Shown: in pieces, positions 5,519 through 24,939 of the stretch
How positions within the stretch are numbered: position 1 is the first letter of the stretch
Layout of the letters: every line of letters begins with the position of its first letter
NCBI GenBank assembly: GCA_017644185.1
Contig: JAEPMA010000006.1
Coordinates: 1 to 64,000, forward strand
Source of the DNA: Rhodospirillales bacterium
GTDB lineage: Bacteria; Pseudomonadota; Alphaproteobacteria; Rhodospirillales; Casp-alpha2
Reading direction: 5' to 3'
Length of the DNA: 64,000 nucleotides
Translations under genes and position numbers: made by a program
The notes under the pieces: model-generated
Told to the model about the DNA's origin: nothing
Databases searched by the model: none
Seen by the model: the letters and a program-made list of their open reading frames with translations, nothing else

Positions 5519-6367
5519 ATGCTGATCGCGCGTAAAACGCCGGACGCGCCGAAACCGGGGAAACCTGGTTTCGGCCCGCGCGTTTTGCTGGCGTCCGCCC
5601 TGTGCCACGCGGCGGTGTTTTCGCTGGCGTGGCTGGCCCCGGCCGCTCCGACGCCTGTTCTCGATGTGCCGATGGTCGTCGAACTGGTGTTCGAAGACGA
5701 CGTTCCGGGGGCGAGCGCGGTGACACCCGAACCGATCCATAAGTCCGTTGAGGTTCGGGAGGAAACCGCAAGAGAGGCCGCCGTCGAGAATGCGCAGGAC
5801 TTGGCGCGGCAACCCGATGACGCGCTGGCAGTACCCCCCGTTCCGGCGCCGGCGCCTGACATCGAGGAAACGGCGTTTGACGATCTGCTGCCTCAATCCG
5901 ACCTGGGAACGCTTCGGGTTCGCCGCAAGCCGAAGCCGCCGATCCCTGAAAAGACAGCGGCCGAACAGCTTCCTGTTCAACCAATAGCAAGCCAGGTCGA
6001 ACCGCGGCCGGTTGAGCGTATCGCGTCGCTGGACGTGCCGCCGCTCAAACACGCACGGCAAATTCCGAACCGCGGCCAGGCAGGTGTGGGGCGGTTCGGT
6101 GCCGTGGCGATGGCTGGTAACCCGCAACCCGTCTATCCGCGCCGTGCGGTGCGTCAGTCGATTGAGGGTACGGTGCATCTGTCGGTCGTTGTCGCCGCGA
6201 GTGGCCGGCCGGCACGGATCGACGTCGCGCAAACCAGCGGCCACGACATCCTGGACAGAGTAGCGGTCGAGACGGTCTACCGGTGGCGGTTCCGCCCCGC
6301 GATGTCGGGCGGCCTTCCGGTCGAAGGCCGCGTCAATCTGCCGATTGTTTTCCGCCTGATCAGATAA
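5519..6367 (+). CDS. tonB: Energy transducer TonB
   Basis: This is a TonB protein of about 282 residues. One N-terminal membrane helix carries the conserved S-x3-H pair (S and H of SALCH), which couples to ExbB-ExbD. A long Pro/Glu/Lys-rich periplasmic linker follows (VPAPAPDIEE, RRKPKPPIPEKT), then a C-terminal TonB domain with QPVYPRRAV and the YRWRFRPA segment. A GTG at 5501 is an alternative start; the ATG at 5519 is preferred because GGGA lies eight bases before it. The gene begins within 30 bp of the receptor stop, so the pair is probably co-transcribed. No exbB or exbD is present locally. Confidence 0.85.
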   Translation: MLIARKTPDAPKPGKPGFGPRVLLASALCHAAVFSLAWLAPAAPTPVLDVPMVVELVFEDDVPGASAVTPEPIHKSVEVREETAREAAVENAQDLARQPDDALAVPPVPAPAPDIEETAFDDLLPQSDLGTLRVRRKPKPPIPEKTAAEQLPVQPIASQVEPRPVERIASLDVPPLKHARQIPNRGQAGVGRFGAVAMAGNPQPVYPRRAVRQSIEGTVHLSVVVAASGRPARIDVAQTSGHDILDRVAVETVYRWRFRPAMSGGLPVEGRVNLPIVFRLIR

Positions 6368-6471
6368 ATCCGGATCGCTTATCAGAGGGTGTATTGGTGG
6401 AAAGGCAATCACCGGTTAGGATGCGGAAATAGACAAGCAAGCATCCGAAAACAGGAACGGGTCGAGGGCAC

Positions 6472-8337
6472 ATGGCATTTACCATCAGCGCCGAAGTGCA
6501 GATGTGGGCGACGTTCGCGATCATCGCGCTGGCGCTTTGCGCCTACACGGCCGAGAAGTGGCCGATGGAGCTGACGTCGCTTGGGACGGTCTGTGCGATC
6601 CTGCTGTTCTTCCAGTTCTTCCGCGTCCCCGCTGATGGCGGCGAGGTCGGGTTAACGCCCGGCCGTATTCTCGAAGGCTTCGCCAACCCGGCGTTGGTGG
6701 CGGTCTTATCGCTTCTGGTGATGGGCCAGGGGTTGATCCGGACGGGGATTCTCGACCGGGGTGCGCAGTGGCTGCTGGATCACATGCGCGCCAAGATCCC
6801 GGTGACGGCGGCAATGTTCGTCGTGCTGTTCATTGTCGGCGCGGTCAGCGGCTTCCTCAACAATACCCCCGTCGTGGTGATCTTCATCCCCCTCATGCAG
6901 GCGATGGCGCACCGCTATCACATCTCACCCAGCCGGGTGATGATCCCGCTCAGTTTCGCCGCCATCCTGGGTGGGATGACGACGCTGATCGGGTCGTCGA
7001 CCAACCTTCTGGTGAATACCGCATTGACCGAGATCGGGGCCAAGCCACTTGAGTTTTTCGATTTCACCGTGCCGGGCGCGATTATCGCGCTGGCGGGCTT
7101 GATGTTCGCGGTGTTCGTGGTGCCCAAGATCCTGCCGGACCGGGCGGGCATGGCGGACAGCGTCGCAACGGAAGGGGCGGGGAAGCAATTCATCGTGCAG
7201 ATCGAAACCCCACCCGATTCCGAACTGATCGGGGAGAGCGCACCGGGCGGGCACTTCAAGGCGCTCCCCGATATGACGGTCAGGATGATCCAACGGGGCG
7301 AAAGGGCGATCCTGCCGCCGTTCGAGGATGTCCAGGTCGTACAGGGTGACGTGATCGTCGTCGCCGCGACACGCGCGGTCCTGAAAGAGGCGATTGCCGA
7401 GCATGGTGAGCTGTTCCACCCCGATCTCAGGGATGGGAAGGCCCTTGAAGACGACGACGAGGACGCGCCCTGGCGCCAGGCCGATCAGGTGCTGGCGGAA
7501 GTGATGATCGCCCCCGCGTCGCGCCTTGTCGGGCAGACACTCAGATTGGCCGGGTTCAGGTATAAAACCGGCTGCATCGTCCTCGGTATCCAGCGCCGGG
7601 CGCGGATGATCCGGGCCAGGATCACGGAAATCCGGTTGGAGGCGGGGGATGTTCTGTTGGTGCAGGGACAGCGGGAAGACGTGCGCGGCCTCAGGGGCGG
7701 GCGGGATGCGATCCTGATTGAAAGTTCGCGCGAGGACCTGCCGACACTCGACCACGTCAAACGGGCGACGCTGATCTTTTTGGGAGCCGTGGTCGCGGCG
7801 GCGACGGGCATGTTGCCGATCGTTGTTTCCGCGTTCGCGGGCGCCGTCGCCATGGTGGCGACGGGGGTGCTTAATCTCAGACAGGCGTTCCGCGCCATCG
7901 ACCCCAAGATCGCGACCGCCATCGCCGCCGCATTGGCGATGAGCGTGGCATTAAGGGAGACCGGGGGTGCCATGTATCTGGCGCACGGGATGGTGTCGAT
8001 GTTTGCCGACCAGGGGCCCTTGATCATCATCTCTGCCTTGTTCCTTCTGGCGGCCCTGATGACCAACGTGATTTCGAATAACGCGGTCGCGGTTTTGTTC
8101 ACGCCGATTGCGGTCGACCTGGCGCGCGAGATTGGCGCCGATCCGATGGTGTTCGCCATCGCCATGGTGTTCGCGGCCAACTGTTCGTTCGCCTCGCCCA
8201 TGGGCTATCAGACCAATCTTCTGGTGATGGGGCCGGGGCACTACAAGTTCCAGGATTTCGTTCGCGCCGGCCTGCCGCTGATCCTGATCGCCTGGGTCGT
8301 GTTCACGATACTGGCGAAGTTCTTCTGGGGGCTTTAG
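6472..8337 (+). CDS. SLC13-family permease with two RCK_C (TrkA-C) domains
   Basis: The inner-membrane protein has 621 residues. About five or six helices come first, then a cytosolic insert of roughly residues 225-430 holding two TrkA-C/RCK_C domains (around IQIETPPDSELIGES and IAPASRLVGQTLRL), then a second helical half. Signature loops NNTPVVVIF, GGMTTLIGSSTNLLVN and NVISNNAVAVLF, and the SPMGYQTNLLV segment, are those of the DASS/SLC13 anion transporters. Bacterial members with RCK_C inserts move sulfate, dicarboxylates or other anions, but the substrate is unclear here. GAGGG precedes the ATG. It appears to be a single-gene unit. Confidence 0.88.
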   Translation: MAFTISAEVQMWATFAIIALALCAYTAEKWPMELTSLGTVCAILLFFQFFRVPADGGEVGLTPGRILEGFANPALVAVLSLLVMGQGLIRTGILDRGAQWLLDHMRAKIPVTAAMFVVLFIVGAVSGFLNNTPVVVIFIPLMQAMAHRYHISPSRVMIPLSFAAILGGMTTLIGSSTNLLVNTALTEIGAKPLEFFDFTVPGAIIALAGLMFAVFVVPKILPDRAGMADSVATEGAGKQFIVQIETPPDSELIGESAPGGHFKALPDMTVRMIQRGERAILPPFEDVQVVQGDVIVVAATRAVLKEAIAEHGELFHPDLRDGKALEDDDEDAPWRQADQVLAEVMIAPASRLVGQTLRLAGFRYKTGCIVLGIQRRARMIRARITEIRLEAGDVLLVQGQREDVRGLRGGRDAILIESSREDLPTLDHVKRATLIFLGAVVAAATGMLPIVVSAFAGAVAMVATGVLNLRQAFRAIDPKIATAIAAALAMSVALRETGGAMYLAHGMVSMFADQGPLIIISALFLLAALMTNVISNNAVAVLFTPIAVDLAREIGADPMVFAIAMVFAANCSFASPMGYQTNLLVMGPGHYKFQDFVRAGLPLILIAWVVFTILAKFFWGL

Positions 8338-8520
8338 GGGGACTGGCGTCACCCAAATCCAGTCGCCATGCGTTAAAATTCACGTTATAGTAGCGAAAAA
8401 AAGATAATGACACCATATTGCGGTGCTTGTGGCGTTGAGCCCCCGCAGGCTGCCACGTCGCATGAATAGCGGCTTCATGCCGCGAGATGCGCGTGCCACT
8501 GAGATCAGGGAGTAGAAAAA

Positions 8521-10146
8521 ATGCGTGTCGTTGAAGAGGGCGGGCGAATTCCGCTATTCAATAAGCAGTTTTCCGATGGCGAAATGATCGACCTTCATGA
8601 GTCGGAAGTGCCGTTCGCTTCGGTCAGACTGGGTTTTGCCGTCGTTATCGAGGGCATAAACGATCTCGATTTCGTCGAATACATCGTCGCTGAGTTTATC
8701 GGTCGCGAAGAAAAGGCATACGAGCAAATTCTACCGGCATTGCGGGACGCGGGAGCGGCCGAGCAGCTTTCCTATCCTGATCGATCCGAGCTCGACAGAC
8801 GAAGTGACGATATTCTGGAAGCAATGTCCGACGATCCAAGTGAAGTGACGTCGGTGGAAAGTCTGTATGTCGCGCTGCGCGGCATCCGCGAGCTTTGGCG
8901 CTCGACAACGGATGAGAGCAATCTGGGGACGATTCTTTCGATCAACCCCAAAGCTTCTTTAACGTCAACGCACATCGTCGACGACGTCGACGTCAACGGG
9001 CGGATGTTGCTCACCCTTGGCCACGATCCGGCCCATCCGCACCTCCACTACGGTCATCCGGTGCTTTTTCTTCAGTCCGGTTCGATCATTCCAACGATGG
9101 GGCTGACGAGCTGGGTTACCGTCGCGAAATGGGGGGCGATCGTCTATACCACGGTGAGAGGTATGTTCACGACGGCGCCCGATGCGGCAGCCTACTTCGT
9201 CGATGCACTGCGCGCCGAGGCGAGCAAGAAAGCGCGCCCATTGCCGCGCCTGGATCGGTTGACGCCCCAGGACGAGACGGACCTGGCGAACGCCGAGCGC
9301 GTGATTGTGTTGTTGCATGGTTTGTTTTCCACCGACGCCGGCACGTTCGACGGTTTGCTCGAATGCTGGGATGACTACGTCGCCAATAAAGCGGGCGGGA
9401 ATGACCAGGGGGTTTATTGGGTCGGCTGGCCGCACGACACGCTCGCATCCGTCAATCAAAACGCCCGTGCTCTGAAGATGAAACTGTTAAAAACCCTGGG
9501 CGCGAGCAATGTCCCTGTGCTTTTCGTCTGCCATTCAAGGGGCGGTGTGCTCGGGCGCGACATTTATCAGGAACTGATCGGCGAGACCGGATGGGATCAA
9601 CGATTAAAAGGCTGTATCACGTACGGCAGTCCGCATAACGGCGTTAAAATCGCGGGTAATCCACTGAAGAGAGCGGGCGGGTATGCGCTGCTCGGCTATG
9701 CTACCAAATCGCTTAAGGCTTTCGATGCGCTGATGGTCTACTTGCATCACAAGAAACGCATCGACGGCATCGACGATCTGCAACCAAAGGGAAACAACGT
9801 TTCTGAGTTTCTCGAGATGTTGGAGCAAAGCGAGAATCTTTTGCCGGACAGGCAGCCGGAACTCTTGGCGGTCGGTGGTGACCTTAGCCTGGCGAAACAG
9901 CCGACCGGCGGCAAACTCAAACAGAAACTTCGGAAGCTTATGCAATGGGGGAATCAGGCCGTGGTCGGATCATCGCGACACGACACTGTGGTGGATACAG
10001 ATTCCTCCATACCGGTCGGGGCCAGTGGCCCGGGCCCCATCCCCGTCGACCATTTCTCATATTTTGAGTTCGGCAATGCCGACGCGGATATCGGGCTCAA
10101 TGCTGGGATCGACCAAATTCGAAGTAAATTCGGTCTAACGCCCTGA
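8521..10146 (+). CDS. Alpha/beta hydrolase with an unrecognised N-terminal domain
   Basis: The protein has 541 residues. I do not recognise the first ~255. They contain an acidic segment and a short hydrophobic stretch near 190-212 (MGLTSWVTVAKWGAIVYTTV). From about 258 on it is an alpha/beta hydrolase: oxyanion-loop LLHGLFS (H266), nucleophile elbow CHSRGG (S339), SPHNG as in lipase-like enzymes, candidate acid D488 and candidate base H511. No signal peptide is visible. AGGGAG precedes the ATG by a normal distance. The gene stands alone between an anion transporter and a small membrane protein. Lipase, PGAP1-like or peptidase activity is possible; I make no functional claim beyond hydrolase. 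Confidence 0.75.
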   Translation: MRVVEEGGRIPLFNKQFSDGEMIDLHESEVPFASVRLGFAVVIEGINDLDFVEYIVAEFIGREEKAYEQILPALRDAGAAEQLSYPDRSELDRRSDDILEAMSDDPSEVTSVESLYVALRGIRELWRSTTDESNLGTILSINPKASLTSTHIVDDVDVNGRMLLTLGHDPAHPHLHYGHPVLFLQSGSIIPTMGLTSWVTVAKWGAIVYTTVRGMFTTAPDAAAYFVDALRAEASKKARPLPRLDRLTPQDETDLANAERVIVLLHGLFSTDAGTFDGLLECWDDYVANKAGGNDQGVYWVGWPHDTLASVNQNARALKMKLLKTLGASNVPVLFVCHSRGGVLGRDIYQELIGETGWDQRLKGCITYGSPHNGVKIAGNPLKRAGGYALLGYATKSLKAFDALMVYLHHKKRIDGIDDLQPKGNNVSEFLEMLEQSENLLPDRQPELLAVGGDLSLAKQPTGGKLKQKLRKLMQWGNQAVVGSSRHDTVVDTDSSIPVGASGPGPIPVDHFSYFEFGNADADIGLNAGIDQIRSKFGLTP

Positions 10147-10201
10147 CACCAGACGGATGCCGTGGTTCATATTTCCAGCTGACGTACTCCGAATCCTGTA
10201 T

Positions 10202-10227
10202 CCGGAAATCCGGGACGGTTGTATAAT
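10202..10227 (+). promoter_or_regulatory. Putative promoter with palindromic spacer
   Basis: A consensus TATAAT (10222-10227) is preceded by the interrupted palindrome CCGGA-AA-TCCGG (10202-10213), which would occupy the spacer upstream of the -10. No good -35 is visible. The pair could drive the small membrane protein at 10366. Confidence 0.35.
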
Positions 10228-10365
10228 ACACGCGGCCTGACGAGCGGCTTCATCGGAAGCAAAGCCTCATGCCGCGAACGCCACCAATGAGTGTCGTTTC
10301 CACCCCCATTGGCCGTTCCTTTGTGCGCTGCCCGCCGTGCCGGGCGGCTGCATCGGAGTACCTGA

Positions 10366-10749
10366 ATGTCCCTGTTTCTCGATATTGTCGTCGGCTCGGC
10401 GGTGGTCATGCTCGCCGTGTCGGCGTTCCTGTTCCTGATCCTCGTCATGCGCAACCCGTTCGTACCCGCTTGGGTGCACGGTGAAAGCGCGGCGCAAGCG
10501 ATTGCGCTTCTGATGACGACCGGTTCGGTGAGTGGTCTCGCCTTTGCGGCGCACGTCTATCACCAGGCGGGTCTGGCGGTTATGCCGTCGTTGGCGGCGG
10601 CGCTTGCCGTGGCAGTTCTGGCAGCGATCGCATTCTGTTGGATGACCGGTTTCCGGATGCGCCTGAAACGCGCCGCCGACGGGTTCTCGCCGTTTGCGCC
10701 GCTGGACCGCACGCCGCACGTGCCGGGGCAGGGTGCCGGCGCGGCCTGA
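10366..10749 (+). CDS. Small four-helix membrane protein of unknown function
   Basis: The protein has 127 residues with hydrophobic segments at about 6-27, 43-63 (weaker) and 70-95, and a hydrophilic tail rich in Pro, Arg and Gly. No family signature is recognised. The start at 10366 is supported by its position after TACCTGA, with no strong Shine-Dalgarno sequence, so the start is uncertain. The gene faces the dehalogenase-like gene ending at 10805. Base composition resembles the neighbours. It is probably a real gene given the coherent helix pattern. Confidence 0.55.
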   Translation: MSLFLDIVVGSAVVMLAVSAFLFLILVMRNPFVPAWVHGESAAQAIALLMTTGSVSGLAFAAHVYHQAGLAVMPSLAAALAVAVLAAIAFCWMTGFRMRLKRAADGFSPFAPLDRTPHVPGQGAGAA

Positions 10750-10804
10750 TCGAAGCGCCGGGCCGGAGGATGATCCTTTTCATCGCCTGCGCCACGCGTA
10801 GGGA

Positions 10805-11701
10805 CTAGAGGTTCGCCGTGAAGAAGCCGTCGAAGTGTTTGAGCACCTCGCCCGGCGCTTCCTCCGCAAGATAATGGCCGCTGTTCACCGCACCGCCGGT
10901 GATGTCGTTGGAACAGTAGCGGCCCCAGATGTCGAGCGGTTCGTACCATTCCCCGATCTTGCCCTTGGCGCCCCACAACACCAGAAGCGGACAGCGGATC
11001 ATGTCGCCCGCATCCCGGCTTTCTTTGTCGTGGATCATGTCGATGGTGGCGGCGGCGCGGTAATCCTCGCACATGGCTGTGATCATCTCGGGCGTGCGCG
11101 CGGCGGCAAGATAGTCGGCGAGGGCGTCGGGGTGGAAGAAGCCGTCGTCTTTTGGTTCGCGCGACGTGTGCGCCTTGAACCATACATCGGGTGCGGCGTT
11201 GATGACGTTTTCGGGGAGCGGGTGACGCTGCGCGAACCAGAACCAGTGGTAATAGCCCATGGCGAAACGCATGTCGGTGCGCTCGAAGTGTTCGATGGTG
11301 GGAATGATGTCGAGCACGGCGAGTTTCTCGACCCTTGTCGCATGATCGATGGCGAGCCGGTGCGCGACGCGCGCGCCCCTGTCGTGGCTGGCGACGCAAA
11401 ACCGCTCATACCCGAAGTGCGACATGACCTCTGCCATGTCCCTGGCCATCGCTTTTTTCGAATAGGGCGCGTGATCGGCGCTCGGGGCCGGCTTGAAGGA
11501 TTGCCCGTACCCCCGGAGGTCCGGGCAGATCACGTGAAAGCGCTCGGATAATGTGGGCGCGACCAGATGCCACATGGCGTGGGTCTGCGGATTACCGTGC
11601 AACAGCAGCAGCGGCGGGCCAGAGCCGGCGTGGCGTAACCTGATGCCACCGCCCGCAACCTGCACCGTTTCGAGTTGGAAGCCGTCGAAGAAATCGGTCA
11701 T
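10805..11701 (-). CDS. Alpha/beta hydrolase with fluoroacetate dehalogenase signature
   Basis: The protein has 298 residues. All positions that define fluoroacetate dehalogenase can be placed: nucleophile D107 in SHDRGAR, carboxylate-binding R108 and R111, acid D131, halide-pocket H152 and W153 (YYHWFW), Y214 and base H276 (NSGHYL). These match the spacing of the Rhodopseudomonas enzyme (D110, R111, R114, D134, H155, W156, Y219, H280) with a nearly constant offset. The family displaces halide from haloacetates in the cytoplasm, giving glycolate. Related epoxide hydrolases lack the H-W-Y halide set. The gene is divergent from the ComA-like gene, with 111 bp between them. Confidence 0.85.
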   Translation of the reverse strand: MTDFFDGFQLETVQVAGGGIRLRHAGSGPPLLLLHGNPQTHAMWHLVAPTLSERFHVICPDLRGYGQSFKPAPSADHAPYSKKAMARDMAEVMSHFGYERFCVASHDRGARVAHRLAIDHATRVEKLAVLDIIPTIEHFERTDMRFAMGYYHWFWFAQRHPLPENVINAAPDVWFKAHTSREPKDDGFFHPDALADYLAAARTPEMITAMCEDYRAAATIDMIHDKESRDAGDMIRCPLLVLWGAKGKIGEWYEPLDIWGRYCSNDITGGAVNSGHYLAEEAPGEVLKHFDGFFTANL

Positions 11702-11812: not shown

Positions 11813-12613
11813 ATGACCGACCGGCCGTTTTCTTTTATCCCCGTCCCCGACGGGCGTACCACCACGAAACCACGTAAGACAGGCGTCACGATGATGATCG
11901 ACATGGGCCTTGGCCCGGCGTTGCTCGACGATCATCTGAGCGTGTGCGGCGACTATGTCGACCTCGCCAAGATTTTCGTGGGCTCGGCGAAGCTTTACGA
12001 CGAGAAAGTTTTCGCCAAGAAGGCCGAGGTGTATGCCAAGCACGGGGTCGATATCTTTATCGGTGGGCAGTTCCTGGAATATGTCATCACCAAGCAGGGC
12101 TACGATGCCGCACCCGCGTTCCTGGATGAAGTCAAGCGCATCGGCGTGAAGTGCATCGAAGTATCCGATAACTGCATCGAGATGTCCGACGACCAACGCA
12201 AGCAGCTAGTCAAAATGGCGCTCGACGCGGGCCTGGAAGTCCACGGCGAGGTCGGCTCCAAGCATGACGTCGCCGACATCGACGAGTTGATCCGCCAATC
12301 TGAAGTGTGTCTGGAGGCGGGCTGCGATGTGGTGTTGTTCGAAGCGGCGGAGCTGGTCTCGGCGGGGGTCGCGAATGTCGATTCAATCAGCCGGATCAAG
12401 GCGGCGGTGCCCGCGCATCAGGTGATGATCGAACTGCCGGGTCCGTGGATCGCGGGGGTTTCGATGAACAACGTGTTCGAGATGGCGAAACAGACCCTCA
12501 AAATCTTCGGCCCGGATGCCAATATGGGTAATGTGGCCTGGGATCAGGTCATCAACATGGAATGCCTGCGCCAGAGCGTGGGGATCGCCGGACCGGATTA
12601 CCTCGACCAGTAA
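11813..12613 (+). CDS. Phosphosulfolactate synthase (ComA) family protein
   Basis: The protein has 266 residues in the ComA family, whose archaeal founder adds sulfite to phosphoenolpyruvate to form phosphosulfolactate for coenzyme M. Family segments are intact: MMIDMGLG near the start, YVDLAKIFVGSAKLY, DIFIGGQFLE, IEVSDNCIEM, EVGSKH and ELPGPWIAG, consistent with a TIM-barrel enzyme. Bacterial members often lack an assigned role. A GGAG site lies ahead of the ATG. The gene ends 27 bp before a molybdoenzyme gene on the same strand, so the two are probably co-transcribed. The exact reaction is not established here. Confidence 0.85.
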   Translation: MTDRPFSFIPVPDGRTTTKPRKTGVTMMIDMGLGPALLDDHLSVCGDYVDLAKIFVGSAKLYDEKVFAKKAEVYAKHGVDIFIGGQFLEYVITKQGYDAAPAFLDEVKRIGVKCIEVSDNCIEMSDDQRKQLVKMALDAGLEVHGEVGSKHDVADIDELIRQSEVCLEAGCDVVLFEAAELVSAGVANVDSISRIKAAVPAHQVMIELPGPWIAGVSMNNVFEMAKQTLKIFGPDANMGNVAWDQVINMECLRQSVGIAGPDYLDQ

Positions 12614-12640
12614 TTTTGAAGATCCGAGAGAGAGTCTATC

Positions 12641-14965
12641 GTGCTGAAACCGAAAGCGCCCGACACCCGAGCCGACGCAGATACGCCGTTTAAACCACAC
12701 ACCTCGCACTGGGGGGTGTTCCAGGCGCGGATAAACGACGGGCAGCTTGAGGTAAAACCCCACAAGGACGATCCGGATCCGAACGAAATCCTGCAGAACT
12801 TCCCGACGGCGCTTCGCCATCGCGCCCGCATCGCCCATCCAATGATCCGCAAGGGCTGGTTGGAGAACGGGCCCGGTCCCGACGACCGGCGCGGCAGGGA
12901 TGAGTATGTGGAAGTGTCATGGGAACAGGCGCTCGATCTTTTGGGGCGGGAACTCGGAAGGGTGCGCGACGACCTTGGGCCCGACAGTATTTTCGGCGGG
13001 TCATACGGCTGGTCGAGTGCGGGCCGCTTCCACCACGCCCAAAGCCAGGTGCATCGATTCCTGAATACGGCTTGCGATGGGTATGTGAAATCGATCGCCA
13101 GTTATTCGTCCGGGTCGTCGCAAATCCTGATCCCGCACATTATCGGGGATTACGAAGGGCTGACGAAACGCAACGTCACGTGGGAACAGATGGCGGCGCA
13201 CAGTGAAATCGTCCTCGCGTTCGGGGGGATGGCGCTCAAGAACTCCATGGTCGCGGGGGGAAGTGTCTCGAAGCATGTCGAGCGCGGCGCCATGCAGCGC
13301 GCCGCCGAACGGGGCTGTGAATTTATCACCGTCAGCCCGATCCGCTCTGACCTGCCCGAAGAAGCCAACCCCGAATGGCTGTCGTTGATCCCCGCAACCG
13401 ACACCGCGTTGATGATGGCGCTCGTCCACACGCTCGTGATCGAAGGGAAGCACGACCAGGAATTCCTGGAACGTTTCACCGAAGGCTGGCCGGTATTCGA
13501 GAAATACCTGATGGGGGAAACCGACGGTCAGCCGAAGGATGCCCAGTGGGCGGCGGACCTCACGGGTGTGCCTGCTGATGAGATTATCAATCTCGCGCGC
13601 CGGCTTCATGGTAAGCGTGCCTTGATCGTCGTCTCGCACTCGCTTCAACGGGCCGAACACGGCGAACAACCGGTCTGGATGGGGATGGTGCTGGCCGCCG
13701 CCCTCGGGCAGATCGGTTTGCCGGGGGCTGGATACGGCTACGCGCTTGGCGCCATCGCCTATTACGGCCGCCAGCTTAACGCGGTGCCGGTGCCGACCCT
13801 CTCGCAAGGGCGCAACGGGGTCAGGGATTTCATCCCCGTCGCCCGGATCGCGGACATGCTGCTGAACCCGGGCGGGGAATATCGTTTCAACGGCGAGACC
13901 CGGAAGTATCCGGACATCAAGCTCGTTTACTGGGCGGGCGGAAACCCGTTCCACCATCATCAGGATTTGAACCGCCTGAGAAAGGCGTTCCAAAGATTGG
14001 ACACGCTGGTCGTGCACGAACTCGCCTGGACCGCGACGGCGAAGCACGCCGATGTCGTGCTCCCCGCGACGATGACGCTGGAGCGCGAGGATATCGGGGC
14101 CAGTTCGAACGACCCGCTCCTCATTCCGATGCATCCGGTCGCGGCCCCTTATGGGGAAGCCAGGGACGACTACGCGATCTTTTCCGAACTCTCGAAGAGG
14201 TTAGGCCGCGAACAGGAATTCACCGAGGGCCGCACGGTCCGCCAGTGGCTGGAGCATCTGTATGAGCCGACGCGCCAGCAACTCGAAGAAAAGGGAGAGC
14301 CCGCCCCAAGCTTCGACGAGTTCTGGGAAAGCGAGGGGATTACTATGCCGCAGCGCCCGGATGATGGCGGTTATCTGCGCGCATTTCGCGAGAACCCGGA
14401 TAAGAAGCCGCTGCGCACGCCGAGCGGGAAGCTGGAAATCTTCTCCGACACCATCGCCGGGTTCGGCGAAGCCGACTGTCCGGGGCATGCCACCTGGCTT
14501 GGCCGGGTCTACGTGCCGGACGAGACGACACCTTTCGTGCTGATCGCCAACCAACCCAGGACGCGGCTCCATAGCCAACTCGACTTCGGCGGGCACAGCG
14601 TGGAAAGCAAGGTTCGGGGCCGCGAAGTCGCGACGATGAACGTTGATGATGCCGAGAAGCTCGGGATTAGTGAAGGCGACGTCATCAAGATTTCGAACGC
14701 GCGCGGTGCCTGCCTGGCGGGGGTTACCCTGACGGACGGTATTCGTTCGGGTGTTATCCAACTCGCGACCGGCGCCTGGTACGACCCCGTCGACCCGGAA
14801 GAAGAGAAACCAATGTGCGTTCATGGAAACCCGAACGTGCTGACGCGCGATATCGGGACGTCGGGGTTGGCGCAGGGATGCACGGGACAGTTGACGACCG
14901 TCAGTGTCGAGCGCTTCGACGGCAACCTGCCGCCGATCCAGGCGTTCGAACCGCCCGCGGCTTAA
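12641..14965 (+). CDS. Molybdopterin oxidoreductase, DMSO/TMAO/biotin sulfoxide reductase type
   Basis: The protein has 774 residues from a GTG start, with GAGAGAG ahead of it. It has no N-terminal 4Fe-4S cysteine motif and no twin-arginine signal, so it should be cytoplasmic like BisC. The segment GGSYGWSSAGRFHHAQ holds the serine molybdenum ligand (S126 by alignment with R. sphaeroides DMSO reductase S147). Pterin-binding parts follow (YWAGGNPFHHHQDLN, HELAWTATAKHADVVLPAT) and the C-terminal molydopterin-binding domain (IANQPRTRLHSQLD, GAWYDP). The family reduces S- or N-oxides or works on related substrates. Pairing with a ComA homologue hints at organosulfur chemistry. Confidence 0.9.
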   Translation: MLKPKAPDTRADADTPFKPHTSHWGVFQARINDGQLEVKPHKDDPDPNEILQNFPTALRHRARIAHPMIRKGWLENGPGPDDRRGRDEYVEVSWEQALDLLGRELGRVRDDLGPDSIFGGSYGWSSAGRFHHAQSQVHRFLNTACDGYVKSIASYSSGSSQILIPHIIGDYEGLTKRNVTWEQMAAHSEIVLAFGGMALKNSMVAGGSVSKHVERGAMQRAAERGCEFITVSPIRSDLPEEANPEWLSLIPATDTALMMALVHTLVIEGKHDQEFLERFTEGWPVFEKYLMGETDGQPKDAQWAADLTGVPADEIINLARRLHGKRALIVVSHSLQRAEHGEQPVWMGMVLAAALGQIGLPGAGYGYALGAIAYYGRQLNAVPVPTLSQGRNGVRDFIPVARIADMLLNPGGEYRFNGETRKYPDIKLVYWAGGNPFHHHQDLNRLRKAFQRLDTLVVHELAWTATAKHADVVLPATMTLEREDIGASSNDPLLIPMHPVAAPYGEARDDYAIFSELSKRLGREQEFTEGRTVRQWLEHLYEPTRQQLEEKGEPAPSFDEFWESEGITMPQRPDDGGYLRAFRENPDKKPLRTPSGKLEIFSDTIAGFGEADCPGHATWLGRVYVPDETTPFVLIANQPRTRLHSQLDFGGHSVESKVRGREVATMNVDDAEKLGISEGDVIKISNARGACLAGVTLTDGIRSGVIQLATGAWYDPVDPEEEKPMCVHGNPNVLTRDIGTSGLAQGCTGQLTTVSVERFDGNLPPIQAFEPPAA

Positions 14966-14988: not shown

Positions 14989-16092
14989 TCAGCCGAGCGG
15001 AGAGGCCGACAGTTCGGGAAGTTCTATTTTCACCCCGTCGGCGACGCTGCGAATATCTTCGACGACGTTGGCGGGCAGGGGGACGCCGGTCTTCGAGAAC
15101 TTTTGTTCGTTCCGGAGTTCCGGCTCGCCCGGCATCAGGATTTCATCGACCCCGTCCGCGAGGGCCGTCGCTTTCATCAGTTGGATGAAGTTGTCGACGC
15201 GTTCGATAAAGGCGTCTTTCGGCATGAACATCGACACATCCACGGCCATGGTGAACTGGCCGTTGTTCTGCGCGTTTTCGAAGTCCGCATAGAGGTTGTT
15301 GACGAGCTTGCTGTACGCCGCACCCGATAGCACGCCTGCCAGCATATCGACGAGGATCGCGATCGCTGAGCCCTTGGCGCCCGCGAAGGGGAGGACGACC
15401 CCCGCCTCGGCTGCCTTTGAATCTGTCGTCGGCTTCCCCTCGGTGTCGAGGGCCCACCCTTCCGGGATCGGGTCGCCGCGCTTGGCGGCTTCGACGATCT
15501 TTCCGCGCGCGACAACGGACGACGACATGTCCATGACGATGGCGGGAATCGATCCGGCTGGGATGGCGACGGACAACGGGTTGGTCCCGAGCGCGCGGCC
15601 ACGGCTGCCCCAAACCGCCATCGAGATCGGCGAGTTGCTGGCGCTCATGCCGATCAAACCCTGAGAGGCGGCTTGCGTCACATAGAAAGAGCCCGGTCCG
15701 TTGTGATTGCTGTGGCGCACGGACGCGATTCCCACACCAGTTTCTTTCGCGATCTCAATCGCGGTCTTGATAGCGAGGTCGCCGGCGACGGCGCCCATGC
15801 CGTTGTCCGCATCAACAAGGGCGACCGACGCGCTTTTGCGTTCGACCTGGATATTGGGTGCCACGTTGACGACGCCTTTTTCCAGACGCTCGGTATAGAT
15901 GGGAATCCGCGTGACGCCGTGCGATCCGTGGCCGCGCAGATCCGCGTGGACAAGATTGTCGGCGACGGTGCGTGCGGCGCCGGTTTCCAGCCCGAACGCC
16001 TTGAAAACATGGGTGGTGAACTGCCGAAGGGCCTCTCCGTTACAATAGAAAAGAGACGTATTTCCGGCGTTTGCAGCCTTTTCGTTGCCCAT
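14989..16092 (-). CDS. Malate/L-lactate/sulfolactate dehydrogenase family oxidoreductase
   Basis: The protein has 367 residues in the Ldh2/MDH2 family of NAD(P)-dependent 2-hydroxyacid dehydrogenases, a fold unlike classical LDH. Diagnostic stretches are HADLRGHGSHGV, RHSNHNGPGSFY, GTNPLSVAIPAG and the D-x-SSS segment VMDMSSSVVARGK. Members include malate, ureidoglycolate, delta1-piperideine-2-carboxylate and (R)-sulfolactate (ComC) dehydrogenases. GGGGAGG lies just ahead of the start. The gene is divergent from a GntR regulator with a palindrome between them, so it is probably under that regulator. The nearby ComA-like gene makes sulfolactate a candidate substrate, alongside a sugar acid or malate. 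Confidence 0.85.
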   Translation of the reverse strand: MGNEKAANAGNTSLFYCNGEALRQFTTHVFKAFGLETGAARTVADNLVHADLRGHGSHGVTRIPIYTERLEKGVVNVAPNIQVERKSASVALVDADNGMGAVAGDLAIKTAIEIAKETGVGIASVRHSNHNGPGSFYVTQAASQGLIGMSASNSPISMAVWGSRGRALGTNPLSVAIPAGSIPAIVMDMSSSVVARGKIVEAAKRGDPIPEGWALDTEGKPTTDSKAAEAGVVLPFAGAKGSAIAILVDMLAGVLSGAAYSKLVNNLYADFENAQNNGQFTMAVDVSMFMPKDAFIERVDNFIQLMKATALADGVDEILMPGEPELRNEQKFSKTGVPLPANVVEDIRSVADGVKIELPELSASPLG

Positions 16093-16232: not shown

Positions 16233-16373
16233 TTGAAACAAAATGGCCATTAGCCTTTGCGAATGGAAGAAATTTTGCCAACAAATCCGGCGCAAAGCCG
16301 CACGGCCACGTTTACGGGCTCCGCGCGCGCGACTACCATTTCCGGGGAGCGACTGGGAGATGGGGAGGCGCTC

Positions 16374-17042
16374 ATGGATGAGGCGAAGAAGACCGGCCTG
16401 CCGTTGCAGGCGATGGTGCGCGACCGGATCGAGCACATGATCCTCAGCGGTGAACTCAAGGCGGGGGAGCATCTGAACGAGAACGCACTCGCCGCTGAAC
16501 TGAATGTCAGCCGGGGGCCGATCCGCGAAGCGACGCGCAGTCTGGCTGACGCGGGCCTGCTGACCATTATGCGGAACCGGGGCGCCTTCGTTCGCGAAAT
16601 CTCACTCGAAGATGTGCTGCACGTTTACGACGTGCGTGCCGGTCTGGCGTCCGTCGCGGGCCGTCTGGCGGCGTTGCGCGCGACACCCGAGGGAGTCGCA
16701 GAGCTGCAGGATCTTTGGGACAGGATGGAAGCCGCGCGGATCGAGCGTGATTCCGACGCGTATTACGAACTCAACCGCCAGTTCCATGCCCGCATCGTCG
16801 AGATGACCGGCAATCCGAAACTGATTGAATTTCACGAAGCCACCGAGCGCGACGTTTTTCTGTTTCTGCGTCGGGGCGTGACCGGACCGACGCGGATCGA
16901 CACGTCGAACCGTCAGCACAAGGAAATGCTGGATGCGATCGCGTCCGGCGATGAACAGGCTGCCGCCAAGGCGTTCGAACGTCATGTCGTCGCCGGGAAA
17001 CAGCGCATGCTGGATACGCTCGTCAGTAATACCGGCGGTTAA
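16374..17042 (+). CDS. GntR-family transcriptional regulator, FCD (FadR) subfamily
   Basis: The protein has 222 residues from the ATG at 16374, chosen because GGGGAGG lies 5-6 bases ahead and the length is typical; ATG 16263 would add 37 unlikely residues. The N-terminal winged helix spans about 12-75 with the NVSRGPIREATRSLADAGLL recognition region. An FCD ligand domain fills the rest, with metal-binding-type residues in the helices (D/N-R-x-FH in YYELNRQFHARI, and H in ERHVVAGK). Such regulators respond to carboxylic acids. It is divergent from the dehydrogenase and upstream of tctCBA, so it probably controls the uptake and oxidation of the transported acid. Confidence 0.9.
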   Translation: MDEAKKTGLPLQAMVRDRIEHMILSGELKAGEHLNENALAAELNVSRGPIREATRSLADAGLLTIMRNRGAFVREISLEDVLHVYDVRAGLASVAGRLAALRATPEGVAELQDLWDRMEAARIERDSDAYYELNRQFHARIVEMTGNPKLIEFHEATERDVFLFLRRGVTGPTRIDTSNRQHKEMLDAIASGDEQAAAKAFERHVVAGKQRMLDTLVSNTGG

Positions 17043-17251: not shown

Positions 17252-18199
17252 ATGAAGCGACTCAGTATTGCAGCTATTTTGACCCTGGCGGTCGCGGTGC
17301 TTTTTGCGGCACCGGCGAGCGCCTGGGAGCCCACCAAACCGATCAAGATCTACGTCGGCTTCTCGCCGGGTGGCGGCACCGACATCGTCGCCCGCACGCT
17401 CGTCGCGGCCAGCCAGGAATTCTTCCCGGTGCCGTTGGTCGTCGTCAACAAGCCGGGCGCCGGTGGCACCATCGCCGCCGACTTTGTCTCCAAACAGGAA
17501 GGCGACGGGTATTCGCTCCTGGTGGCGGGCGGCAGCGAAAGCACGTCCGTGCCGAACCACCGCGAAGTGTCCTACAGCCTCGATAACTTCCGCGGCGTGC
17601 TGCGGAACATCCGCGCCCGGATCATCCTCGTCAGCAAGGCCGGTAGCGACATCAAGACCATTGACGATCTGGTGAAGAAGGCGAAAGCCGAGTCGGGCAA
17701 GCTGGCCTACGCGTCCAGCGGCGCCGGGACCCTCTATCATTCGACCATGCTGCTGTTCACGAAAGCGGCCGGGATCGACATGAAGCACGTCCCCTATAAG
17801 GGCGGTTCGCCCGCCATGGCGGCGTTGCTTGGTGGTCACGTCGACATCACCCTCGCGGCACCCGAAGAAGCGCAGGCCCAGGTCGAAGCCGGTCAGGTCA
17901 ATCTGTTGGGTCTGACGTCGACGGAACGCACCGATCTGTTCCCGGACGTGCCGACCCTGAAAGAGCTGGGCTACGACGTCTATCTGGAAAACCAGAAGGG
18001 TATCGTCGGCCCCGCCTCGATGCCGGACGATGTGTACCAGTACCTGCACGACAAGTTCAAAATGGGTATGGACACGAAGGTCTGGCAGAAGATGGCCGGC
18101 AAGCTGAAGCTTGAAACGTCCTATCTGAACGGCCCTGACTTCAAAGATGCCATGGGTACGATGTCGAAGACCATCGGCGATGCGGTCAAAGGCCTCTAA
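17252..18199 (+). CDS. tctC: Tripartite tricarboxylate transporter substrate-binding protein (TctC family)
   Basis: The protein has 315 residues with a signal peptide (about 1-24, cut after ASA) and the Bug/TctC fold. The loops GFSPGGGTDIVAR and VNKPGAGGTIAADFV, the AYASSGAGT segment and the GLTSTERTDLFPDVPTL stretch are characteristic. It captures a carboxylate in the periplasm and hands it to TctB-TctA. A strong AGGAGGAA precedes the ATG. It heads a tctC-tctB-tctA series spaced 45 and 8 bp. The GntR gene just upstream is the likely regulator. The ligand cannot be read from sequence; Bug proteins bind di- and tricarboxylates, aromatics and others. Confidence 0.9.
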   Translation: MKRLSIAAILTLAVAVLFAAPASAWEPTKPIKIYVGFSPGGGTDIVARTLVAASQEFFPVPLVVVNKPGAGGTIAADFVSKQEGDGYSLLVAGGSESTSVPNHREVSYSLDNFRGVLRNIRARIILVSKAGSDIKTIDDLVKKAKAESGKLAYASSGAGTLYHSTMLLFTKAAGIDMKHVPYKGGSPAMAALLGGHVDITLAAPEEAQAQVEAGQVNLLGLTSTERTDLFPDVPTLKELGYDVYLENQKGIVGPASMPDDVYQYLHDKFKMGMDTKVWQKMAGKLKLETSYLNGPDFKDAMGTMSKTIGDAVKGL

Positions 18200-18244: not shown

Positions 18245-18718
18245 ATGAAAACCGACCGGATTTTCGGATGTGTGTCGGCGTTGCTCGGACTCCTCTTCGT
18301 GTTCTTGGCGGTGCCGTCAATCACTGGTGATTGGCAGCAGGGTGAACAGGCGCGGTACTTCACCGTTGGTCCGCGCCTGTTCCCCTACATTTCCGGCGTG
18401 TTGGTGACCGTGTTCGCGGTCCTGATCGCCCTCAAACCCGACGGTATGAACAGCATCGCCGCGTTTCTGCAGCCGGGCGCGGCAAAGAGGGCGTTATTCG
18501 CCATCGTGCTTGCGTTCGTCTACGTCGCGCTGCTGGAGCCACTCGGCTTCATCATCGCGAGCGTGCTGGTGCTGTTCGCGTTTTTCATCGGTTTCGGCGA
18601 GCGCCGCTGGAAGCTGATCGTGCCGATCGCCGTAATCGTGCCGATTGCCGTTTCCGCGATGTTCTCGGGCTTTTTCAAGGTCCAGCTGCCGCCCGGGCTG
18701 TTCGCGATTTCGTTCTAG
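18245..18718 (+). CDS. tctB: Tripartite tricarboxylate transporter small subunit TctB
   Basis: The protein has 157 residues with four hydrophobic helices (about 10-26, 45-60, 80-105 and 115-140), the expected size and topology for TctB. The YFTVGPRLFPYISG segment before the second helix is typical of the family. It works with TctA in the inner membrane, driven by an ion gradient. GGGGAGAA lies ahead of the ATG, and tctA begins 8 bp after its stop, suggesting translational coupling. Confidence 0.88.
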   Translation: MKTDRIFGCVSALLGLLFVFLAVPSITGDWQQGEQARYFTVGPRLFPYISGVLVTVFAVLIALKPDGMNSIAAFLQPGAAKRALFAIVLAFVYVALLEPLGFIIASVLVLFAFFIGFGERRWKLIVPIAVIVPIAVSAMFSGFFKVQLPPGLFAISF

Positions 18719-18726
18719 GTTGAACC

Positions 18727-20232
18727 ATGGATTTATTTATTAGCGCCGCCAGTGAAGTCTTTGCGCCGGCCAATCTGCTGATCCTTCTGGCATCGACGGT
18801 GATTGGAATCGTCATCGGCGCCATTCCCGGTCTGACGGTGACCATGGCGGTCGCGCTTGCGGTGCCGCTGACGATCTGGATGGAAACCACGCCCGCGATG
18901 CTGATGCTGCTCGGGCTCTATGGGTCAGGGATTTACGGGGGCAGCATCTCGGCGTGTCTGTTGAACGCGCCGGGGACGCCCGCATCGGCGGCGACCGCGC
19001 TTGACGGTTACGAACTTGGTAAGCAGGGGAAGGCTTTAAAGGCGCTCAAGGTCGCGCTCTGGGCATCGGTTTACGGTGGGTTGTTCTCGATCGTGCTTCT
19101 TGTTTTGATCGCGCCGCAATTGGCGCAGGTCGCGCTCAAGTTCGGGCCGGCGGAAATCACGTGTCTGCTGATCTTCGCCCTCACGGTGGTTTCCGTCCTG
19201 TCGGGCGATTCGATCATGAAGGGGTTGTTCGCGGCCGCGCTTGGGATGCTGCTCGCGACCATCGGCGCGGACCCGATGCTGATGATTCCCAGATTCACGT
19301 TCGGGGTGGACGAACTATTCGACGGGCTTGCCTATATCCCGCTTTTGATTGGTTTGTTCGCCATCGCCGAGATGTTCGCCCAATCCGAACAGTCTTTCCG
19401 TTTCGGGGCGACGATCCTGAGTATCAAGGACGGCGAACGCGACGAGAACCGGATTTACGCCGAGGACGTGAAGAAGTGCGCGATCCCGGTGATCCGATCG
19501 GGGTTCTTCGGTGCGTTTATCGGGATGCTGCCGGGCTTGGGCGCCGCCGTCGCTTCGTTCGTCGGATATGCGGAAACCAAGCGCGCCTCGAAAGAGCCCG
19601 AGAAGTTCGGTAAAGGCGCCATTGAGGGGGTTGCCGCATCCGAGTCCGCCAACAACGCGGTCACCGGATCGGCGATGATCCCGATGCTGGCGCTCGCCAT
19701 TCCGGGTGACCCACCGACAGCGATCCTGTTGAGCGCGCTGATGATTCAGGGCGTGACCGTGGGGCCGCTGATCTTCGCCAACAACCCGGACGTGGTCTAC
19801 ATGATCTACGTCGCGTTGTTCATGGCTCTCGTCGCGACTGCGGGGGTGGCGGCGATGTTCATGAAGCCGATCTCGCATGTCCTCCGGGTGCCGAAGGTCT
19901 TTCTCTATCCGATCATCCTCTCTATGTGCGTGGCGGGCAGCTATGCGATCCGCTTCAACGTGTTCGATGTGTTCGTGATGTTGGGTGCGGGTGTACTCGG
20001 TTACGTCATGCGGATATTCGGCGTGCCGGTCGCGCCGTTGTTGATCGCCTTCATCCTGACGCGCCCGTTCGAGGAATCGCTGCGTCAGGCTTTAATCCGT
20101 TCCGAGGGAAGTCTCATGGTCTTCCTCGAGCATCCCATTGCCCTGTTCTTCCTGATCCTGGCCGTTGCCGCCGTCGCCTTCACGGTGTGGCGCGAACACA
20201 AGACCGGCCACCGCATCGGCGAGCAGGGCTGA
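18727..20232 (+). CDS. tctA: Tripartite tricarboxylate transporter large subunit TctA
   Basis: The protein has 501 residues with about a dozen membrane helices. The TctA signatures are clear: GAIPGLTVTMAVALAVPLT near residue 36, YGSGIYGGSISACLLNAPGTP, and a second copy-like GMLPGLGAAVASFVGYAETK followed by ESANNAVTGSAMIPMLALAI. These conserved glycine-proline loops form the substrate path. The length is standard for the family. It starts 8 bp after tctB and is followed 27 bp later by a hydroxyacid dehydrogenase gene, so transport and catabolism are probably in one transcript. Confidence 0.92.
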   Translation: MDLFISAASEVFAPANLLILLASTVIGIVIGAIPGLTVTMAVALAVPLTIWMETTPAMLMLLGLYGSGIYGGSISACLLNAPGTPASAATALDGYELGKQGKALKALKVALWASVYGGLFSIVLLVLIAPQLAQVALKFGPAEITCLLIFALTVVSVLSGDSIMKGLFAAALGMLLATIGADPMLMIPRFTFGVDELFDGLAYIPLLIGLFAIAEMFAQSEQSFRFGATILSIKDGERDENRIYAEDVKKCAIPVIRSGFFGAFIGMLPGLGAAVASFVGYAETKRASKEPEKFGKGAIEGVAASESANNAVTGSAMIPMLALAIPGDPPTAILLSALMIQGVTVGPLIFANNPDVVYMIYVALFMALVATAGVAAMFMKPISHVLRVPKVFLYPIILSMCVAGSYAIRFNVFDVFVMLGAGVLGYVMRIFGVPVAPLLIAFILTRPFEESLRQALIRSEGSLMVFLEHPIALFFLILAVAAVAFTVWREHKTGHRIGEQG

Positions 20233-21168: not shown

Positions 21169-21987
21169 TTAAAAACCGTACAGGCGGGCCGGATTTTCCA
21201 CCGCGACGTTCGGCCAGTCTTCACCGCACCACGATCTGACGAGCGTCAACAGTTTTTCGTCGTCGGGCTTTTCGTCCGGCCCAAGGCTCGGATGCGGCCA
21301 GTTACTGCCCCAAAGAAGACGATCCGGGGCAACGTCACGAAGTTGTCTAACCCTCTCGGGGCCGCTGCCCGCGGTCTCGAAATCGGGTGCGATGTAATAG
21401 GGCGCGGAAAGCTTGAGCCAGATATGAGAACGACCGAGCAGACGGAGCAGGCACTGGAACGCGGGGTGATCGACGCCCGCGCCCTCCGGCATGCGTCCGA
21501 AGTGATCGATCACCACGTCGCAGGGAAGACGGCTGAGCCGCTCTTCGATTTCGGGAAGCTCGTCGCCCGCGGTCTGTACGATCACGTGCCAGCCCATGTC
21601 GGCGATATATTTCGCCACAGGTTCGAGGTCCGAAATCGGCAAACAACCCTTGGCGAGACTGTGAAACCGGACGCCCCTGACGCCGGCATCGTTAAGTTTC
21701 CTCAAATCCGATTTGATCGCCTCCACGCCGACAATCGCGACACCGCGCGCGTTGCCGTCATCGCGCGCGAGGGCATCGAAAAGACACGCGTGGTCGCGGC
21801 CGTACCCGCTCGGCTGCACGTAAACGGTCTTTGTGATCCCGAGACGCGCGCGAAGCTTCATGTAGTCGTCGAACGTCGCACCGGGCTCGAGCCCGCTCGA
21901 CGGGAACCGGTCCGCAGGTCCGTAAACATGCATATGCGTGTCGCAGATGCCGCTCAAAGGCCGGTCCGATGCATTGCCGTCATTCAT
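21169..21987 (-). CDS. Amidohydrolase family protein (2-pyrone-4,6-dicarboxylate lactonase-like)
   Basis: The protein has 272 residues in the amidohydrolase-2 group. Metal or active-site elements are the N-terminal CDTHMHVYG (H-x-H), the VIDHFGRMPEG histidine segment and the C-terminal LLWGSNWPHP aspartate/tryptophan region. PDC lactonase (LigI) and D-galactarolactone isomerase belong to this group, both opening or moving sugar- or aromatic-derived lactones. It converges on the dehydrogenase (6-bp gap) and is divergent from the aldolase gene by only 30 bp. No good ribosome site precedes the ATG at 21987, so the start is tentative. Confidence 0.8.
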   Translation of the reverse strand: MNDGNASDRPLSGICDTHMHVYGPADRFPSSGLEPGATFDDYMKLRARLGITKTVYVQPSGYGRDHACLFDALARDDGNARGVAIVGVEAIKSDLRKLNDAGVRGVRFHSLAKGCLPISDLEPVAKYIADMGWHVIVQTAGDELPEIEERLSRLPCDVVIDHFGRMPEGAGVDHPAFQCLLRLLGRSHIWLKLSAPYYIAPDFETAGSGPERVRQLRDVAPDRLLWGSNWPHPSLGPDEKPDDEKLLTLVRSWCGEDWPNVAVENPARLYGF

Positions 21988-22017
21988 TGGAAAAATTCGA
22001 ACCTTAAGGAGAAAGCC

Positions 22018-24881: not shown

Positions 24882-24887
24882 CTCGGT

Positions 24888-24939
24888 GGGCCACGCTTCC
24901 CCAACGAGGCGCGACCTTTCTGAGAGGAAAGGAGATAGC
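24888..24939 (+). ncRNA. serC leader with two hairpins (candidate serC RNA motif)
   Basis: Two consecutive hairpins fill the space before serC: CGCTTC-CCCAAC-GAGGCG (24894-24911, one U-G pair) and CCTTTC-TGAGAG-GAAAGG (24915-24932). The second includes part of the AAAGGAGA ribosome site, so its folding would limit serC translation. The serC RNA motif is a known short conserved structure upstream of serC-serA in alphaproteobacteria, and taxon, position and gene order all fit. Identity to that motif was not tested by covariance search. Confidence 0.6.

Follow-up and report, generated by a model that had tools for sequence, protein, structure and literature searches.

A ComA-like gene paired with a BisC-type molybdoenzyme gene in a Rhodospirillales bacterium, a possible organosulfur catabolic module

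Gene content of the locus

The window, that is the whole 64,000-nucleotide stretch of Rhodospirillales DNA analysed here, contains a ComA-family gene followed by a gene coding a BisC-type molybdoenzyme (Table 1); the original prediction had placed the two 27 bp apart, and the ORF boundaries agree with this. It had also named a ComC-like enzyme as the next gene over, which is correct as to position; however, this Ldh_2 gene is convergent with the pair and divergent from the GntR and Tct genes, and thus lies outside the ComA-molybdoenzyme operon, so that an operon of all three genes was ruled out. Its product scored 273.9 bits with the NCBIfam model of L-sulfolactate dehydrogenase (NF040650), for which the equivalog cut-off is 500, and is a possible pathway partner of the pair. 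The GntR regulator reaches 191 bits with phnR_burk (NCBIfam cut-off 271.5).

Table 1. Coordinates of the ComA-molybdoenzyme pair and of the genes downstream of it in the window
Feature	Position	Strand	Remarks
ComA-family gene	11813-12613	+	266 aa; Pfam PF02679 4e-54
Intergenic spacer	12614-12640	+	27 bp; both genes on the same strand, operon-like
BisC-type bis-MGD molybdoenzyme gene	12641-14965	+	774 aa, GTG start
Ldh_2 (malate/L-lactate/sulfolactate-type) 2-hydroxyacid dehydrogenase	14989-16092	-	PF02615 392.5 bits
GntR/FCD regulator	16257-17042	+	top NCBIfam match phnR_burk, under cut-off
TctC, solute-binding protein (tripartite tricarboxylate transporter, TTT)	17252-18199	+	PF03401 175.7 bits
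TctB	18245-18718	+	PF07331
TctA	18727-20232	+	PF01970

Pfam and NCBIfam searches of the neighbouring genes recognised no CoM-cluster gene beside the window pair; SuyAB was not recognised there, and sulfatase, DUF3604 and Ssu genes are likewise absent from its surroundings in the window. The genome does have one DUF3604 and one sulfatase gene, located together on another contig.

The ComA-like protein and its subfamily

The assignment of the first gene to the ComA family, made in the original prediction, is borne out by Pfam (184 bits with PF02679, cut-off 25.2) and by the structure model (pLDDT 94), which has the same fold as the Methanocaldococcus jannaschii (1qwg; VIA-align Z 32.5, rmsd 1.4, 240 residues aligned, 30% identity) and Bacillus subtilis YitD (1u83; Z 29.1) proteins. 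The acidic/Lys/Asn/Arg core is invariant between the window protein, these two and the Xanthobacter plasmid homologue Xaut_5052; it comprises D30, K53, E89, E116, S118, E146, K150, E177, E180, E207, N240, E250 and R253, which in M. jannaschii ComA numbering are D20, K43, E79, E103, S105, E133, K137, E168, E171, E205, N227, E237 and R240. The protein belongs to a distinct, mostly proteobacterial ComA subfamily, and according to the residue table the acidic/lysine core is intact in all 69 of its members.

Part of the CoM-type ComA signature is missing from the subfamily. Arg170, Ser172, Gly173, Gly175 and Gly177 of the M. jannaschii enzyme are present in 3/3 CoM-type proteins compared, which have in common a Gly-rich RESGxGxG segment; this segment is deleted in 69/69 subfamily members, where Ala always stands at the Arg170 position (A179 in the window protein) and no residue aligns with Gly175 or Gly177. 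Lys209 (EAPxK) is missing from at least 67 of the 69, in a column that adjoins an insertion and is uncertainly aligned. Arg170 and the RESGxGxG segment probably hold the phosphate of PEP in the CoM-type enzymes; with this segment lost, the window protein is most likely a phosphate-independent relative and not a phosphosulfolactate synthase. The protein scored 156.8 bits with TIGR03849 (arch_ComA, NCBIfam), whose equivalog cut-off is 280. The earlier proposal that the protein joins sulfite to PEP is weakened by the loss of the Arg170 segment and by this low score. Subfamily genes carry the annotation 'phosphosulfolactate synthase', as on a Chelativorans plasmid.

A sulfatase-type hydrolase or DUF3604 gene is found near ComA in 50 of the 69 subfamily loci. 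Among the 33 loci of at least 16 kb, sulfatase genes occur in 16, DUF3604 in 14, TauD in 13 and SsuA-like genes in 12, versus 0, 1, 2 and 0, respectively, in 20 background stretches, a comparison biased towards the loci by neighbour queries that came from the same loci. The gene-order table leaves out L052, L059, L061, L062 and L073, whose ComA ORF was uncalled, and its entries L028 and L030 duplicate L077 and L092. TauD, SsuABC-like or TauE genes are also present in several loci: the top NCBIfam match of the TauD neighbours is taurine dioxygenase, under its cut-off, the ABC genes resemble SsuA, SsuC and TauB, and a gene of the TauE sulfite-exporter family immediately precedes ComA in 5 loci. 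Moreover, in three genomes (G013, G024, G030) the only PF00884 gene is located immediately before ComA. The c2 'sulfatases' mostly have C-V-P-A-R, and their substrates may be esters of phosphate or phosphonate. In the DUF3604 proteins Pfam found only DUF3604; their D/H pattern could hint at a PHP-type fold. Foldseek returned beta-sandwich-type proteins with a query TM of at most 0.17 among the matches listed, which counts neither for nor against this fold. Literature searches gave no paper joining ComA, phosphosulfolactate and sulfatase, and nothing apparently related on DUF3604. The subfamily neighbourhoods point, loosely, to organosulfur chemistry. The ComA superfamily as such is not sulfur-bound, since other branches adjoin PrpD/PrpF and TctC, or TcuA and TctCBA.

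One of the nearest known systems is the sulfolactate degradation module (SlcHFG TTT importer, SlcC/ComC, SuyAB, TauE), with which the window has in common a transporter of the TTT type and a dehydrogenase of the Ldh_2 family, and some betaproteobacterial subfamily loci share GD_AH_C (the family that includes SuyB), TauE, TctC and Ldh_2; unlike that module, the window has no recognised SuyAB beside the pair. Conversely, ComA-like and molybdoenzyme genes are not part of the module as described in the excerpts of PMC12421959 and PMC5812351. The table in the excerpt of the latter, a TTT review, has mostly carboxylates as substrates, and TTT systems for sulfolactate also exist (PMC5812351).

The molybdoenzyme and the recurrence of the pairing

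The second gene product contains the Pfam domains Molybdopterin, Molydop_binding and Molybdopterin_N. It scores 622 bits with the DMSO reductase 1eu1, with Ser, Tyr and Trp aligned: Ser156 corresponds to the Mo-ligand serine of the Rhodobacter enzyme, Ser147, and Tyr122 and Trp124 are also kept, so that the predicted serine ligand was recovered both by alignment and in the residue table. No twin-arginine motif was seen when the N-terminal sequence was read, in agreement with the predicted lack of a signal sequence. Judged by its sequence, the protein is a member of the cytoplasmic S/N-oxide reductase family; it shares the serine ligand, Tyr122, Trp124, the domain make-up and about 36-51% identity with BisC/TorZ-type reductases and Rhodobacter DMSO reductase. 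Its score with the subfamily model bisC_fam (TIGR00509, NCBIfam) is under the cut-off (915.8 bits vs 1017.55); in the class sample 82 genomes have a match, and only 27 of these exceed that value. A quick tree, of the kind suggested with the original prediction, placed it among cytoplasmic BisC-type enzymes, in a 41-row clade (SH-aLRT 94) that is large, alphaproteobacterial and mostly without Tat signals; the E. coli BisC, TorZ and TorA rows lie apart from this clade, and differ also in that the window enzyme is linked to a ComA-like gene.

Adjacency of the two genes, which the original prediction had proposed to look for elsewhere, recurs in 6 further genomes, all of one other lineage, but it is not general: only 4 of the 69 named subfamily loci have it, and in G003, the genus-mate of the window, ComA is present without the molybdoenzyme pairing. 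A survey of 61 related genomes, with that of the window among them, counted the ComA subfamily in 11, a BisC-type enzyme in 14 and both in 5, and in 5/5 of these the genes are adjacent and in the same order, which is more than chance. The spacer is 84-87 bp in the four other pairs measured.

In quick trees of both proteins the window is separated from the six other linked genomes. AU tests with all linked genomes constrained as one clade gave p = 0.00021 for the molybdoenzyme and p = 0.0022 for ComA, rejecting a single inheritance of the pair; since the window pair stands apart in both trees, the pairing apparently has at least two separate origins. The 82-row ComA set omitted L098, L104, L105 and L106 (partial or redundant), with rows for G013, G024 and G003 added; the molybdoenzyme trees excluded duplicates, fragment L119 and two large but unrelated molybdoproteins, and the AU test on 36 rows also excluded long or redundant ones. 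Literature searches found no paper joining phosphosulfolactate with biotin sulfoxide reductase, and nothing apparent on a ComA-molybdoenzyme pairing under phosphosulfolactate synthase and molybdopterin.

Possible function of the pair

The apparently repeated origin of the pairing suggests a breakdown route for sulfur-containing compounds that has gone unrecognised. We tentatively propose, with rather less than even confidence, that the pair is a short operon within an organosulfur catabolic module, combining a phosphate-independent ComA-like lyase with a molybdoenzyme that reduces an S- or N-oxide. The TIM-barrel keeps the acidic/lysine core with which ComA forms or cleaves a C-S bond adjacent to an enolate; the protein could, for example, eliminate sulfite, or another leaving group like it, from the beta carbon of a carboxylate, as an analogue of the SuyAB sulfolactate lyase that amounts to ComA run backwards, while the molybdoenzyme would act in the cytoplasm, reducing an S- or N-oxide of that compound or of one that accompanies it. 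Phosphate independence, lyase chemistry, a sulfur substrate and this role of the molybdoenzyme are what we infer from sequences and gene contexts. The lack of sulfatase, DUF3604 and Ssu genes beside the window pair, the C-V-P-A-R of most c2 hydrolases, the PrpD/PrpF and TcuA contexts of other ComA-family branches and the rarity of the pairing in the subfamily weigh against this proposal.

A module not involving sulfur is unlikely, though to be taken seriously: the ComA-like protein would act on a plain or phosphonylated carboxylate imported via Tct, the 'sulfatase' would be a phosphodiester or phosphonate-ester hydrolase and the molybdoenzyme would reduce an N-oxide. The PrpD/PrpF and TcuA contexts of other ComA-family genes, the C-V-P-A-R of most c2 hydrolases, the phnR_burk-like regulator and the prevalence of carboxylates among the TTT substrates tabulated in the review excerpt fit this reading; the TauD, TauE and SsuA/SsuC/TauB-like neighbours of the subfamily, and the sulfolactate TTT systems, argue against it. 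Equally doubtful is that the molybdoenzyme is an ordinary salvage enzyme for methionine or biotin sulfoxide, found beside the ComA-like gene by chance. Indeed, BisC-type enzymes are widespread, occurring in 82 of the 385 genomes of the class sample (E <= 1e-150), and lie in unrelated gene contexts in other relatives, and E. coli BisC acts on MetSO and biotin sulfoxide as a reductase and has no electron-donating proteins encoded alongside it (PMC7759655, excerpt); however, chance association accords poorly with a gene order and orientation that two separate lineages have in common, with adjacency in every co-occurring relative and with the short spacers.

A true phosphosulfolactate synthase, fixing sulfite onto PEP and feeding sulfolactate to the ComC-like Ldh_2 enzyme, would account for the ComA fold, the invariant core and the neighbouring dehydrogenase (274 bits with the sulfolactate dehydrogenase model); with the Arg170 region lost throughout the subfamily, the arch_ComA score well under its cut-off, and the Ldh_2 gene convergent and its product under its own cut-off, it is improbable. 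Most speculative, and very unlikely as it stands, is that the ComA-like protein represents a new type of lyase, which would carry out beta-elimination on carboxylates with a sulfoxonium, sulfoxide or sulfonate substituent (e.g., DMSOP-like), the BisC-type enzyme reducing the released sulfoxide; if this lyase-plus-reductase reading were true, the pair would provide a two-gene intracellular route unrelated to the known DMSP lyases or to periplasmic DMSO respiration.

Returning to the proposed organosulfur module, the operon, apparently formed twice, leads to one substrate hypothesis that is testable with two purified proteins. The ComA subfamily genes also mark catabolic islands. Should the subfamily prove to be a branch independent of phosphate, a considerable number of bacterial genes carry the wrong name, phosphosulfolactate synthase.

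Conservation of the ComA-molybdoenzyme pair

The ComA-family gene and the BisC-type molybdoenzyme gene lie on the same strand with a 27-bp spacer, as originally noted. The Ldh_2 gene, taken as a ComC-like neighbour, does follow the pair, but on the other strand; transcribed away from it are a GntR gene and the genes of a TctC-TctB-TctA transporter. This orientation suggests that it goes with the GntR/Tct genes, if anywhere.

Features of the window
Feature	Position	Strand	Remarks
ComA-family gene	11813-12613	+	266 aa; family per Pfam and NCBIfam
Molybdoenzyme gene	12641-14965	+	774 aa, GTG start; family per Pfam and NCBIfam
Ldh_2 gene	14989-16092	opposite to pair	directly after the pair
506-aa protein	21292-22812		HpcH/HpaI aldolase match confined to the C-terminal half; first ~280 residues outside it
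TauD gene	23860		~9 kb downstream of the pair
408-aa ORF	24886-26112		directly 5' of a SerA-type gene; start resembles phosphoserine aminotransferase by eye; no match in Pfam

Of 61 related genomes, counting that of the window, 11 carry a member of the ComA subfamily (at least 40% identity) and 14 a BisC-type enzyme (E <= 1e-100); both occur in five (G000, the window's own, G013, G024, G030 and G035), where they are always adjacent. Scanning 84,980 named species genomes returned 69 loci of the subfamily, four with the pair (L055, L058, L063, L071); L058 and L063 apparently correspond to contigs G035:C4 and G030:C4 and were counted once, giving seven distinct genomes. Thus, the adjacency holds in six genomes besides the window's, but in only 4 of the 69 named loci: the pair is real and recurrent, but rare. 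Of the six, G013, G024, G030 and G035 share a genus, and L055 and L071 group with them in quick trees. In two genomes of the class sample (G254, G439) both genes are present but apart. G003, a genus-mate of the window's organism, has a ComA of the other lineage without the molybdoenzyme. Going by their listings, none of the papers searched describes such a pair.

In both the ComA and the molybdoenzyme trees, branches with good support make a minimum of two label changes necessary for the genes belonging to pairs. Constraining the linked genes together was rejected for the molybdoenzymes (p-AU 0.00021; 4 linked rows of 36) and for ComA (p-AU 0.0022; 7 of 70), in tests resting on quick trees in which some branches, including the window's, are long; two origins of the pairing are therefore most likely. 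The window's nearest ComA relatives, L038 and L039, have no such molybdoenzyme in about 10 kb of DNA each. Whether this order and strand came about twice independently or one partner was replaced in situ, the outcome speaks for selection on the link.

Fold and residues of the two proteins

The AlphaFold model of the ComA protein, built on a 46-row alignment, has a mean pLDDT of 94.1. In structural comparison it lies closest to M. jannaschii ComA (Z 32.5, rmsd 1.4, 240 residues, 30% identity), with a designed particle (9cm1) second and B. subtilis PSL synthase third (Z 29.1); further matches are pyruvate carboxylases (Z about 16). An alignment of 82 sequences comprised 69 subfamily rows (three of them from other relatives, the remaining 66 from the named loci plus the window), four near rows, six other rows and three CoM-type rows, namely M. 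jannaschii ComA, YitD and Xanthobacter Xaut_5052, which have CoM or sulfolactate roles; the Xaut_5052 gene is located within a 2-hydroxypropyl-CoM lyase cluster. All 69 subfamily members agree at thirteen core positions with charged or polar residues. In the same 69, Arg170 (M. jannaschii numbering) is Ala, Ser172 is substituted and the Gly175 and Gly177 columns are gaps; Gly173 is substituted in at least 68, and Arg170 is also absent from the near and other rows. In CoM-type ComA, we infer, this Arg170/Gly segment serves phosphate or another anionic group in the PEP reaction. This comparison weakens the reading of the protein as a true PEP and sulfite enzyme, and the phosphosulfolactate synthase label is doubtful. 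Elsewhere, a 35%-identical ComA-like gene on an Arthrobacter plasmid (L183) lies beside thioredoxin, thioredoxin reductase and UGSC (seleno)protein genes, and an order-level relative (G043; L003, L016-L022) has eight ComA-family matches of several subfamilies, some beside Tct genes.

A full-length alignment with Rhodobacter DMSO reductase (622 bits) pairs Ser156, Tyr122 and Trp124 of the molybdoenzyme with the Mo-ligand serine and the active-site Tyr and Trp; the serine ligand noted at first is thus borne out, and E. coli BisC and TorZ, like the six other enzymes linked to ComA, keep all three residues. According to a review (PMC7759655), a serine ligand is typical of Dor/Tor-type enzymes, and BisC acts on biotin sulfoxide and methionine sulfoxide with an unknown physiological electron donor. 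The proposed phylogenetic comparison, a 52-row quick tree, placed the enzyme inside a 41-row clade separate from E. coli BisC, TorZ and TorA; a motif scan of this clade flagged a Tat-like stretch in one row (L174, at its very start). The enzyme falls below the bisC_fam cut-off; of 385 genomes sampled from the class, 82 have a match, and 55 of these likewise stay below it. At L133 and L137 (G012, G022), a BisC-type enzyme lies within a conserved cluster resembling ectoine degradation, whose ORFs, read by eye, include an AsnC regulator, an amino-acid ABC transporter, a PLP lyase, and M20 and M24 peptidases; at L138 (G046, 5733-10867), another BisC-type enzyme has GD_AH_C, SAF (SuyA-like) and TctA genes within a few kb.

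Genomic context of the ComA subfamily

The 69 subfamily loci (905,074 bases) contain DUF3604 in 31, a sulfatase-type hydrolase in 29, TauD in 20, TctC in 18, an SsuC-like permease in 16, an SsuA-like protein in 15, GGT in 8, HAD in 7, TauE in 6 and GD_AH_C in 5; DUF3604 or the hydrolase occurs in 50, neither in 19. Those 33 loci that span 16 kb or more were compared with 20 stretches of 16.8 kb, spaced evenly in four relatives (hydrolase 16 against 0, DUF3604 14 against 1, TauD 13 against 2, SsuC-like permease 12 against 0, SsuA-like protein 12 against 0), a comparison biased by queries drawn from the loci themselves and by close relatives among them. By the gene-order table (70 rows, of which two are duplicates), ComA has the hydrolase directly upstream in 17 and directly downstream in 6, DUF3604 in 7 and 6, respectively, and TauE directly upstream in 5.

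The other paired lineage has the order hydrolase, ComA, molybdoenzyme; HAD, TauD and SsuC/B/A-like genes follow on the opposite strand, and DUF3604 lies some 9 kb away from ComA. In G013, G024 and G030, the hydrolase of this island is the only PF00884 match of the genome. Most of the sulfatase-type (c2) hydrolases have the motif C-V-P-A-R, so they may act on a phosphonate or a phosphodiester. In the window, no hydrolase, DUF3604 or Ssu gene lies beside the pair; the one hydrolase and one DUF3604 of its genome sit together on a different contig, where a TctA-like gene accompanies them.

Proposed function

A sulfolactate module of SlcC/ComC dehydrogenases, SuyAB and TauE has been described (PMC12421959), to which, in two bacteria, a TTT importer belongs (PMC5812351). 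The Tct and Ldh_2 genes of the window are reminiscent of this module, without proving it. The pair need not be about sulfur, since ComA-family genes elsewhere adjoin PrpD/PrpF, or TcuA. The commonness and varied contexts of BisC-type enzymes, and the lack of hydrolase, DUF3604 and Ssu genes beside the window's pair, also count against the function proposed here.

Beyond the ComA fold, we infer every functional step. The loss of the CoM-type segment with retention of the core fits a phosphate-independent ComA-like enzyme. If this is a lyase that releases sulfite from an unphosphorylated beta-sulfo carboxylate, it would carry out ComA chemistry in reverse, with products identical to those of SuyAB, and would account for the neighbouring TauE. 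The molybdoenzyme would serve as the reductase for an S- or N-oxide derived from that compound.
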